From Methanocorpusculum labreanum Z (GTDB lineage: Archaea; Halobacteriota; Methanomicrobia; Methanomicrobiales; Methanocorpusculaceae): a stretch of DNA of 64,000 nucleotides. Under the pieces are notes generated by a model. That model was given only the letters and a program-made list of their open reading frames with translations. It ran no database searches and was not told where the DNA came from. Positions 205 to 63,974 of the stretch are shown piece after piece. The stretch is from NCBI RefSeq assembly GCF_000015765.1, contig NC_008942.1, positions 1,317,921 through 1,381,920 of the forward strand, read 5' to 3'. Made by a program: the position numbers and the translations under genes. The first letter of the stretch is position 1. Every line of letters begins with the position of its first letter.

Positions 205-559
205 AGAGCCCCTCCGTAATGGGACATCAACAAGCTAAATAACAGCTCTCCTGTTGTTGTGTAGAGAAGGAGGGGGAGACTGTATTTTCACACATAAATT
301 TAAATTAGTAATACTATAAATGACTATTCAATTTATTGTTAATACATATTTCCACATTAGAAAACAAATGTATCTAAGAATTGATGCAAAAGCTAATCTC
401 TATGCTCAAGTCGCCAAGAGAGGGAAGTGAATCTTATTTTTAATCAAACCAAGTTAACAGGAGATTTATTTTACAAACCACAAATGAAAGAACACCCTAA
501 GCCACAGTATTGAATATCTCGCGCATACAAATACTATTCAGTATTTATCGGAGATTCAC
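205..559. other. AT-rich intergenic region between divergent permease and argG genes
   Basis: No open frame that looks like a gene and no RNA gene is visible. It should hold two divergent promoters. An A/T-rich tract at about 290-360 includes an ACTATAAAT-like box near 310-318, and TTTATTTTA lies near 464-472, but neither can be assigned to a gene with confidence. The right end carries a perfect palindrome listed separately. Confidence 0.6.
529..546 (+). promoter_or_regulatory. Palindrome in argG leader (possible operator or leader hairpin)
   Basis: AAATACT-ATTC-AGTATTT is a perfect 7-4-7 inverted repeat ending 13 nt before the argG ATG and just upstream of its GGAG ribosome-binding site (550-553). 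It could be an operator for repression of arginine synthesis or a weak RNA hairpin next to the ribosome-binding site. The regulator is unknown. Confidence 0.4.
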
Positions 560-16262: not shown

Positions 16263-17441
16263 ATGAAAGCATGCATTATGTGCGGGGGAGAAGGAACCCG
16301 TCTTCGCCCGCTAACATTTGAGCGGCCGAAACCCTGTATCCCGATAGCCAACAAACCTTCGATCGTACATCTGGTTACGCACCTTGCCAACCTCGGTTTT
16401 ACCGATATCGTTTTGACCATTGGATATCTGGGTAACGATATTCAGGATGCACTTGGAGATGGATCACTCTACGGCGCAAATATCACCTACGTCTCCGAAG
16501 AGATAAAACTCGGAACTGCCGGCAGTGTGAAAAACGCCCAGAAGTATCTTGAAGATGCCCCCTTCCTCGTGGTCGGCGGCGACCACATGACCGATCTCAA
16601 CCTCCTGGAGTTTTACCGGGACCATATGAATTCCCCGGCGATCACCTCGATCGGTCTGATCAGTATCGAGGATCCCCGCGAGTTCGGCATCGCCGAGATC
16701 GATGCATCCCTCAGAATCCAGAGATTCAGAGAGAAACCGGCGCCCGGAGAGATCTTCTCCAACCTCGCAAGCACGGGAATCTATGTCTGCGACCCGAAGA
16801 TCTTCGAGTTCATTCCGGAAAACACCAAGTTCGACTTCGCAAAAGACCTCTTCCCGCTCTTAATGGAAAAAGGATATCAGCTCAACGGCTGGCTGGCACG
16901 CGGGAACTGGACGGATGTCGGCAACCCGGCGATGCTGCGTGCCGCCGAGAAGTGGATCCTGCAGGAAAAGACCGTGACGAGTGTATCGGGAACCCTCAAT
17001 ATTAAGGATGCGCATATCACGGGACCCGTGACACTTGGAGACGGCGTAACGCTTGGGTCAGGATCGAGGATCGTCGGGCCGGTAATCGTTGGAAACGGTG
17101 TTATGATCGGAGAAAACGTCATCATCGGTCCGTACACCAGTATCGGAGACAACTGCGTTATCAAAAATAATGCAAAAATATTCTCATCCTCAATCTACAA
17201 CGGGGTCGTCGTCGGATCCAACACCACGATCTCGGGCAGCATCATCGACGTCAATACCAATATGGGAGATAACTGTTCCATTGAACACAATACCGTGGTC
17301 GGCCCGCGCTCGATCCTGCAGAACAATGTTACCATCCACTCCGGGACCAGACTCTGGCCGGAGGTCATCGTCAAGGAAGGAGCGGTCGTAAAGGTCCATC
17401 TCCTGAACCCCAAGTTCGACTCGCGCTTCGAAGGATCTTAA
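16263..17441 (+). CDS. NDP-sugar pyrophosphorylase with left-handed beta-helix (GlmU/ManC-like)
   Basis: 392 residues. The nucleotidyltransferase domain has the signature MCGGEGTRLRPLTFERPKP (residues 7-25), GYLGNDI, and VVGGDHMTDL. From about residue 245 hexapeptide repeats (LGDGVTLGSGSRI, VGNGVMIGENVIIG and so on) form a left-handed beta-helix. It probably makes a UDP-, GDP- or dTDP-sugar for glycans; the substrate (glucose, mannose or GlcNAc phosphate) is not clear, and an acetyltransferase role for the helix is unproved. It may feed the AglJ-type glycosylation path. The 458-bp inverted-repeat element begins 2 nt after its stop codon. Confidence 0.88.
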   Translation: MKACIMCGGEGTRLRPLTFERPKPCIPIANKPSIVHLVTHLANLGFTDIVLTIGYLGNDIQDALGDGSLYGANITYVSEEIKLGTAGSVKNAQKYLEDAPFLVVGGDHMTDLNLLEFYRDHMNSPAITSIGLISIEDPREFGIAEIDASLRIQRFREKPAPGEIFSNLASTGIYVCDPKIFEFIPENTKFDFAKDLFPLLMEKGYQLNGWLARGNWTDVGNPAMLRAAEKWILQEKTVTSVSGTLNIKDAHITGPVTLGDGVTLGSGSRIVGPVIVGNGVMIGENVIIGPYTSIGDNCVIKNNAKIFSSSIYNGVVVGSNTTISGSIIDVNTNMGDNCSIEHNTVVGPRSILQNNVTIHSGTRLWPEVIVKEGAVVKVHLLNPKFDSRFEGS

Positions 17442-17442
17442 A

Positions 17443-17900
17443 TAGGACTTACGCGGTGTGGTTGTGAATCCAATTCGGGAAGGGTATGGCTGGGTTTGGA
17501 AACATGAGGTTATTTAACCGCCAATCTCCGCGAATTAACGCGAATCGCATTTTTCTTGCGTTCGGGTGCTCTGCTTCGGCTGATCGCCTACACAGAATCG
17601 CACCCTCTCTGGAAAAATGCTGAGGAAAAACCCGCGTGCGGGTTTTTCTTATCTTGCATGTCTTTTTTCTGCAAAAAATAGATGAATAATGCCTTTTCTT
17701 GATATGGGGTGCGGGGCCGCGACTTCGGCGCGGAGCGGCCCACGGTGGGATATCCTATTTGCTGAGGCCCCTCTACGTTTCCAGATAGTTCAGCTGGAGT
17801 GAAGGATTCAGATAGGAAATATGTGATGATTGTGAGGATATAATTCGGGAAGTATATGGCTGGGTGTGGAAGCATGAGAAAGCCTACCGCGTAAGTCCTA
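17443..17900. mobile_element. Non-coding element with 15-bp terminal inverted repeats and 6-bp target duplication (copy 1)
   Basis: The ends are TAGGACTTACGCGGT (17443-17457) and its exact reverse complement (17886-17900). Both flanks carry CTTAAA (17437-17442 and 17901-17906), as expected for a target-site duplication. Inside the ends lie two direct ~50-bp relatives (about 17463-17510 and 17832-17880) sharing AATTCGGGAAG, TATGGCTGGGT and CATGAG. A strong hairpin AAAAACCCGC-GT-GCGGGTTTTT is at 17626-17647. No transposase is encoded. A related element lies at 63226-63842. It looks like a MITE-type non-autonomous element. Confidence 0.72.
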
Positions 17901-17926
17901 CTTAAAAAAGATTTTTTTTATTTTTT

Positions 17927-18871
17927 TTACATTGACCGAGATGCCTTTTCTTTGGCTTCCCGGCATTTATTGATCAGCTCACGGTTATTTCCATTCGCAA
18001 ACGAGAGCGCCTTGTCGAAAGACTCGATCGAATCCGCATATTTTCCAAGAAGCATCTGTTCGTATCCTTTGTTGTACCAGGCATCCGCGTCGTTTGGAAG
18101 AGCGATCAAAACCCGGCGGAAACAGTCATACGCTTCCTCATGTCTTCCAAGGATGCTGAGCGCCATTCCTTTGTTGTTCATAGCCCCGGTCATCGAGCGT
18201 TCGTATTTCAGAGCCTTGTCGTAGTAAAAGAGCGACTCCTCATGTTTTCCCAAGGAAGACAGAGCATTGCCGCAGTTGAAGTAACTGACCGAATGACCCG
18301 GAGCGATCGTAAAGGCTGCCTTATAGCAGGTGACCGCATCCTCGAGCTTCCCGCAGTCATACAGCATCGTGGCACGGTTGAACCAGTGTTCCGGACCGCG
18401 GGGTTCCAGATCGCAGACATGTGCCATGACTTTGTCGGCCTCGCTGAATTTTTTCGCGATCGACAGCATCCGTGCATGGCTGGTAAGAAACACCACGTCG
18501 TCGGGAGCGAGAGAAAGCGCCTTTAGAAAGCAGGCATCCGCCTCGTCATACCGGTGAAACGTCGCAAGGGCATCCCCTTTATTATGGCAATACACCGCCG
18601 AGTCCGGGCGGAGTTCGATCGCCCGGTCGTAACAGGGTATCGAAGCCTTCTCTTCATTGACCATAGCAAGGAGGCGGCCCTTCTCGTGCCAGGCGAGCGG
18701 GTTCTCCTTATCGCAGGCGATCGCTTTATCAAGACAGTGAAGAGCATCGGTATATCGTTCGAGTCTGATATATGACTCGGCCTGAGAGAACCACATCGCA
18801 GAGTCTGCTTCTTTTGAGGCTTCTTTTGAAGCGGCATTCTCCTGTTTTTTAAACCTGTCGAACAATCCCAT
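17927..18871 (-). CDS. TPR-repeat protein
   Basis: About 314 residues, nearly all tetratricopeptide repeats (roughly eight, for example WFSQAESYIRLERYTDALHCLDKAI and AWHEKGRLLAMVNEEKASIPCYDRAI). TPR domains mediate protein contacts. I chose the ATG at 18871 (MGLFDRFKK, a common start for such proteins); an in-frame ATG at 18922 would add 17 residues. No SD is seen at either. Divergent from the coiled-coil/nuclease-like gene. Function unknown. Confidence 0.75.
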   Translation of the reverse strand: MGLFDRFKKQENAASKEASKEADSAMWFSQAESYIRLERYTDALHCLDKAIACDKENPLAWHEKGRLLAMVNEEKASIPCYDRAIELRPDSAVYCHNKGDALATFHRYDEADACFLKALSLAPDDVVFLTSHARMLSIAKKFSEADKVMAHVCDLEPRGPEHWFNRATMLYDCGKLEDAVTCYKAAFTIAPGHSVSYFNCGNALSSLGKHEESLFYYDKALKYERSMTGAMNNKGMALSILGRHEEAYDCFRRVLIALPNDADAWYNKGYEQMLLGKYADSIESFDKALSFANGNNRELINKCREAKEKASRSM

Positions 18872-18953
18872 GTACTGATAAATCAGTTTGTGTTGAAAGG
18901 TGATGAACGATTCGGAAAACATGAGGGAAAAAATCCGCAGGTACCGTAAAATG

Positions 18954-63225: not shown

Positions 63226-63842
63226 TAGGAGTTACGCGGTGTGCTCTCAATCCAATTCGTGAAGGGTATTACTGGGTGTGGACACATGAGATAAAACCAA
63301 CCGCGAATCGGCGCGAATCCGCCCTTCGGGCGAAGCGAATCGGATTTGCTGACCCTCACTCTCGCTCGTTGGGCCTGGTCGCAAATCAAAGATTTGCTCC
63401 GCTAAGGTCGTCGACTTCGTCGCCAACCCGCCGACCCAACGGCTCGTCCCTTCATCGGGATCGTTCGGGCAAATCCTGTCGGTGCCCCGGCACCTCCAGT
63501 GAGGGAGAGATTCATTGAGCAGTCCTTAATCTGAAAAATATCCACTGTACTGACAATCACGATATAAGATCAAGAGAAATATCAATAATAGGAGCCGCTG
63601 GGGCGGCGACAGGATTTGCCCGAACGGTCCCGATGAAGGGATGAGCAAGACAGCGAAGCTGGATTGCGAAAGTGAGGATCAGCAAATCCGATTCCGGGAG
63701 CAAGCCAAAGGCTTGCGGGATTCGCGCCGATTCGCGGTTGGTCTTTTCTCACGTGTCCACACTTATGCCACTCACGAAATCGAAGTACATCTCATAAGAT
63801 CTTCAGTTTTTTTCCGGTTAAGATCGCACCGCGTAAGTCCTA
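63226..63842. mobile_element. Non-coding element with terminal inverted repeats and ~200-bp inverted arms (copy 2)
   Basis: Ends TAGGAGTTACGCGGT (63226-63240) and ACCGCGTAAGTCCTA (63828-63842) match copy 1 in 14-15 of 15 positions. Flanks ATAAAA and TTAAAA are nearly equal. The arms pair over most of the length: 63296-63320 pairs perfectly with 63718-63742 (25 bp), 63448-63481 with 63607-63640 (one mismatch in 34), 63337-63352 with 63679-63694. Smaller hairpins (GCCCTTCGGGC; GCAAGCC-AAA-GGCTTGC) sit on the arms. No transposase. The right end is 14 nt from the 3' end of tRNA-Asp. Confidence 0.75.
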
Positions 63843-63856
63843 TTAAAAAAACGAAA

Positions 63857-63929
63857 CGCCCAAGTCGGAATTCGAATCCGAGTCGCAGCCGTGACAGGGC
63901 TGCATGATAGGCCACTACACTACTTGGGC
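63857..63929 (-). tRNA. tRNA-Asp (GUC anticodon)
   Basis: 73 nt with acceptor stem GCCCAAG/CTTGGGC, discriminator G, anticodon loop CTGTCAC between GCAGC and GCTGC giving GTC, and T arm with GATTCGAATTC. CCA not encoded. Confidence 0.96.
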
Positions 63930-63974
63930 AACAAACCGCACGTCAATCCCGCACAATCAAAACGAAAGAAGAAG

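Follow-up and report, generated by a model that had tools for sequence, protein, structure and literature searches.

A new family of MITEs in Methanocorpusculum labreanum Z and its probable mobilisation in trans by an IS701_2-like transposase that the strain lacks

We analysed a stretch of 64,000 nucleotides from Methanocorpusculum labreanum Z (contig NC_008942.1, positions 1,317,921 to 1,381,920), called the window below. An upstream open reading frame (ORF) at 16263-17441 and a convergent downstream ORF on the minus strand at 17927-18922 flank a short non-coding element with the following features, where G023 is the nearest sampled relative as judged by the gene at this locus (95% identity).

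17437..17442, no strand: left target duplication CTTAAA, within which the upstream ORF terminates; single copy in G023
17443..17900, no strand: non-autonomous element of 458 bp; its inverted repeats and target duplication are exact, the genome holds further copies, and G023 has the empty site
17443..17457, plus strand: left terminal inverted repeat TAGGACTTACGCGGT, exact, 15 bp
17459..17508, plus strand: left copy of a subterminal direct repeat of about 50 bp, 83% identical to the right copy (self-BLAST)
17625..17648, no strand: internal hairpin (arms GAAAAACCCGC and GCGGGTTTTTC), which recurs as a cargo unit within the MITE family
17827..17878, plus strand: right copy of the subterminal direct repeat (self-BLAST)
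17886..17900, minus strand: right terminal inverted repeat TAGGACTTACGCGGT, exact, 15 bp
17901..17906, no strand: right target duplication CTTAAA, exact; single copy in G023

The perfect 15-bp inverted repeats, the 6-bp target duplication and the internal hairpin had all been described in a first-pass annotation of this DNA, and each was recovered at the positions given above. The same annotation had read the upstream ORF as a sugar pyrophosphorylase and had placed the insertion 2 nt after its stop codon; the element does lie just past that stop, but only one base (17442) separates it from the TAA at 17439-17441. This TAA sits inside the duplicated hexamer, and the upstream frame was left intact by the insertion because the left CTTAAA contains it. 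The element had been said to encode no protein, and indeed nothing in it pointed to a gene, the ORF list giving a single frame of at least 60 aa, a mechanical one of 95 aa on the minus strand (17588-17875). Four sites in the window match TAGGACTTACGCGGT with at most 3 mismatches (three exact, one with 1 mismatch), compared to a mean of 0.89 in shuffled sequence, and this number was matched by 1 of 100 shuffles. Analysis of self-pairing at a span threshold of 290 bp detected only the ends and the hairpin in the window element, its subterminal 50 bp being repeated in direct orientation. No Rfam match above the gathering score was obtained for 17300-18000; an enterobacterial sRNA match in this region scored 26 of 50 bits, below the gathering score, and was taken as chance.

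The element is an insertion, because the sister genome G023 has an uninterrupted site with one CTTAAA, which is the empty site that the first-pass annotation had proposed to look for in a relative. At the same site G009, G020 and G005 carry no element and a single CGTAAA, while G010 has CATAAA and an alignment that is less clear beyond it. We compared 21 other elements of the host genome with G023, and observed empty sites that were precise in five cases (gap from -5 to -7) and near-precise in two (gap 2 and 4), with neither kind seen for the other 14. The outcomes were distributed as follows.

host 562120, 723770, 1276440, 1381146, 1407925: precise empty sites in G023
host 1290246, 1556741: near-precise empty sites in G023
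host 550016: element that appears common to the host and G023
host 1294650, 1488469: G023 has an element of another size or interior at the same spot
host 606702: G023 is empty, with a small deletion
host 273183, 1194685: no join obtained in G023
host 67008, 131487, 297595, 700082, 898354, 910343, 1063379, 1188204: the G023 sequence is other, decayed or unclear

The host element at 1488469-1489099 and its G023 counterpart (L300, 934-1399) differ in their interiors at nearly the same intergenic spot, reflecting either independent insertions or an exchange of interiors.

The host genome is a single contig of 1,804,962 bp. A search with the window element, another check that the first-pass annotation had called for, gave 78 matches, which reduce to 40 clusters if those within 700 bases of one another are merged, showing that copies are multiple and dispersed; the closest of them is 90% identical over element positions 1-456. 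End sites with at most 2 mismatches numbered 45 across the genome (24 forward and 21 reverse), compared to 3 (1 + 2) for a control in which the end pattern was read backwards. Matches and end sites combined define 52 places covering 19.2 kb, or 1.06% of the genome. Twelve of these places consist of end sites only; a single 829-bp element accounts for two of the twelve, one for each of its ends. For analysis of whole elements we used 22 end-to-end pairs out of 27 pairing rows, after 5 alternative or nested pairings had been dropped; self-complementary spans of at least 290 bp were found in 9 of the 22. Table 1 of PMC2686161, in the part of that paper available to us, credits the strain with 0 transposable elements. 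What it counts is probably genes, in which case short non-coding elements would have been missed.

A second member of the family lies within the window, 13 bases from a tRNA-Asp gene (63856-63930), and its site in G023 is empty (gap -6).

63226..63842, no strand: second element of the MITE family, 617 bp, with 1 and 0 end mismatches and flanks ATAAAA/TTAAAA (1 mismatch in 6)

An alignment of the window copy, three host copies, one copy from G005 and one from G020 showed a common backbone that in some copies is interrupted at a few points by short inserts rich in hairpins, and such inserts are found in neither the window copy nor the host copy at 898354. Longer copies that carry them are L141 (1426-1996), L142 (1450-2063) and the host elements 67008-67595 and 297595-298107.

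A hairpin with arms AAAAACCCGC or AAAAACCGGC recurs in the host stretches, where a pattern requiring the A5/T5 arms found 56 sites. The two commonest forms account for 43 of these sites (24 and 19); among the other 13, eight differ in the loop only, three are altered in stem or length and two are unrelated, though conservation in this set is inflated by search patterns that required A5/T5 arms or most of the stem. One stem pair, followed through 68 segments, was C-G in 42 and G-C in 26, with no mismatches, and the two versions may go back to one ancestral event. That the hairpin acts as a terminator is a guess. We also considered a structured RNA extending over the larger module, and rejected it when RNAalifold retained only the terminal hairpin and one stem of two pairs.

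Ends with at most 1 mismatch are present in 11 of 25 genomes of the genus, and DNA similar to the element in 15 of 25, the host being included in both counts. Among the 14 genomes without ends, 11 are less than 90% complete; G012, G013 and G024, at 90-97% completeness, also have none. Pairing of ends across the genus gave 65 pairs, including at least 2 nested alternative pairings. Exact 6-bp duplications flank 22 of them compared to 1.7 expected by shuffling, 5-bp duplications flank 8 (again 1.7 by shuffling), none has 7 bp, and in 20 a recognisable duplication is missing. Fifteen of the 22 exact 6-bp duplications read TTNNAA; the CTTAAA of the window is a near variant among the other seven.

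The first-pass annotation had reasoned that the element would need a transposase elsewhere in the genome. None was found there: searches of the host genome with the G004 IS protein, NF049921, PF13546 and PF01609 gave no match, and insertion sequences (IS) with matching ends were seen only in other species, among them G004 and, recognised by its ends, G020. In these two genomes the autonomous relative is present as a decayed or partly assembled copy. Inspection of ORF lists by eye at the solitary host ends 672564 and 1499431 and in the 829-bp element at 723770 revealed no obvious transposase.

The IS of G004 is 1103 bp long, with 0 and 1 mismatches in its ends and a 5-bp duplication. Its frame is frameshifted and matches Pfam DDE_5 and DDE_Tnp_1; it also matches NCBIfam NF049921 (transpos_IS701_2; E = 1.1e-62), where this broken frame reaches 212 bits, under the curated cut-off of 250 bits. 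Copies above that cut-off with such ends occur elsewhere in the order, in which 47 of 199 genomes matched NF049921 at E <=0.001 and 15 did so above the cut-off; the corresponding numbers among 14 control genomes were 5 and 1. We collected 36 IS701_2-type loci inside and outside the genus (L154-L189), of which 21 have paired ends with at most 3 mismatches in all to TAGGACTTACGC, several of the remaining 15 being interrupted by contig ends. G008 and G010 hold IS fragments, and the genus genomes examined showed no intact IS with ends of this type. PF01609 gave 19 hits across 10 of the 25 genus genomes, with a matching end pair in the G004 IS alone, some of the other 18 loci being broken off at contig ends. 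G010 also has two long end pairs, of 1020 and 1507 bp, that are interrupted by stretches of N and look MITE-like by eye, and each of eight IMG/VR viral contigs (L258-L265) carries a single end that lacks a partner at up to 2 mismatches.

Paired ends were usable in 18 IS copies, comprising 14 from the order including G004 and 4 more, some from outside the order. A 5-bp duplication was found in 12 of the 18 (13 with the outer right end of L187) and a 6-bp duplication in none; 6-bp duplications of an IS were seen at two places in G020 only.

The G020 IS is known from contig ends. The first 134 bp of contigs C2 and C3 are one and the same IS left end, while C1 and C8 open with a 174-bp IS right end, which includes the final 46 codons of a frame and is 71% identical over 175 bp to the right end of the G004 IS. 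G020 gave no match to the G004 IS protein or NF049921, and only the two ends of its IS are assembled, presumably because the IS is multicopy and its interior was thereby left out of the draft. When these contigs are placed by synteny with the host and G023, C3 adjoins C1 and C8 adjoins C2, and the first of these places corresponds to an empty target in the window.

438..443, no strand: empty target TTTTAA, uninterrupted in the window; in G020, C3 ends and C1 begins with IS ends there

TTTTAA is thus found on both sides of the IS at the first place and once in the host window, and TTAAAA on both sides at the second. Both places lie in A/T runs, and the contig joins are made by synteny. At the second place the host carries a MITE (1556741-1557237; 3 and 1 end mismatches, no clear duplication), and G023 has no element. 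The G020 branch of the IS therefore seems to give 6 bp, like the MITEs, which suggests that duplications of both 5 and 6 bp can come from a single group of transposases. Over 32 bp the G020 IS left end is 100% identical to the end of a MITE in G020 itself (L276) and 96.9% identical to ends of host element 67008-67595 and of L136 in G005; other MITE ends agree less, or over shorter stretches. The ends of the second window element (63226-63842) reach 96% over 25 bp and 87.5% over 32 bp, and those of the element at 17443-17900 share 22 and 21 of 32 positions, following the IS left end over the first 15-18 bp and departing from it beyond about 18 bp. Host elements often pair one end resembling the IS left end with an end of another type.

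Taken together, the copies in the genome, the IS with the same ends in relatives and the empty site bear out the first-pass reading of 17443-17900 as a MITE, and it is a new family of a known kind. Its mobilisation was probably in trans, by an IS701_2-like transposase that this strain lacks. Our best overall explanation, to which we give a probability of about 90%, is insertion of the MITE by a DDE transposase of the IS701_2 kind that the strain as sequenced does not encode. With the 15-bp ends as its recognition sites, such a transposase would have inserted the element at an A/T-rich hexamer cut with a 6-bp stagger, and repair would then have duplicated the hexamer. The strain may have lost this transposase or may have received it from elsewhere, and the interior would be passenger DNA between IS-type ends.

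Comparable elements are the MITEs SM1-SM4 of Sulfolobus solfataricus, whose ends differ from those of the present family. According to the portion of PMC10969869 available, these range from 25 (SM2) to 44 (SM3) copies, and they resemble the M. labreanum elements in being short, non-coding and present in tens of copies. Unlike them, the M. labreanum MITEs have no partner transposase found in the strain, and their interiors hold hairpin modules and, in the 9 host elements noted above, long self-complementary spans. With IS701_2 elements (NF049921) the family shares the same or nearly the same ends and, in G020, the 6-bp duplication; the MITE differs in carrying no transposase, and most readable IS copies give 5 bp. 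The IS701 family as delimited in the available part of PMC2266710 (1400-1550 bp, duplication of exactly 4 bp) is linked to the partner IS by the name of the transposase model in NCBIfam, but most partner copies measure about 1.1 kb and their duplications are of 5 or 6 bp, and neither the G004 IS (1103 bp, 5 bp) nor the G020 IS (6 bp) falls within that definition. A search of titles and abstracts, with subscription papers and ISfinder outside its scope, found no description of this MITE family. The sole mention of transposases in the accessible text of PMC10035134 concerns bacterial-like genes in M. vombati, and that of PMC3035222 mentions transposable elements in its annotation method only.

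The 6-bp duplications of most MITEs, set against readable IS701_2 copies of which none shows 6 bp, would fit a transposase from a different, unsampled family that shares these ends and makes a 6-bp staggered cut, as would the want of an intact IS with these ends in the genus. We regard this as very unlikely, since the G020 IS, with its right end related to the IS701_2-type element of G004, has 6-bp duplications at two places, and 18 of the 19 PF01609 hits in the genus come without such paired ends, even if some of those loci are cut by contig ends. Shared ends, extending to 32 bp or more in some members, could also mean that the element is an internally deleted IS copy whose interior is IS sequence. 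In the 22 host elements, however, all matches (E <=0.01) to the G004 IS or the G020 IS ends fall within 58 bp of an element end, a comparison that is complete for the interior of the G004 IS and represents the G020 IS by its ends, and we consider an internal deletion highly improbable.

A different proposal makes mobility secondary: the element would be retained as a functional unit whose hairpin serves as a two-way transcription terminator between the convergent genes. The position between convergent ORFs agrees with this, as do the recurrence of the A5/T5-armed hairpin in copies and the stem pair that is never mismatched. A terminator scan of 17300-18000, which needs a loop of at least 3, found none, however; the search patterns inflate the apparent conservation of the hairpin, its two stem versions may represent one event, and relatives carry the locus without the element. 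On balance such a role appears rather unlikely.

Insertion by an IS701_2-kind transposase from outside the present gene content of the strain remains our preferred reading. A broader picture, which we offer as doubtful, is that of an orphan population of some fifty MITEs in a strain with no detectable cognate transposase. Some of them would have entered after the split from the nearest sampled sister, so that the enzyme moving them in trans would either be a recent loss or a visitor, and the elements would be spreading a hairpin that may serve as a portable two-way terminator. A strain tabulated with 0 transposable elements in the accessible part of PMC2686161 has about 1% of its genome in this family. 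The family is a clear example of MITEs for which the genome that carries them has no detectable transposase while a sister species has a partner IS, and one place is occupied by the IS, occupied by a MITE or empty across three species.
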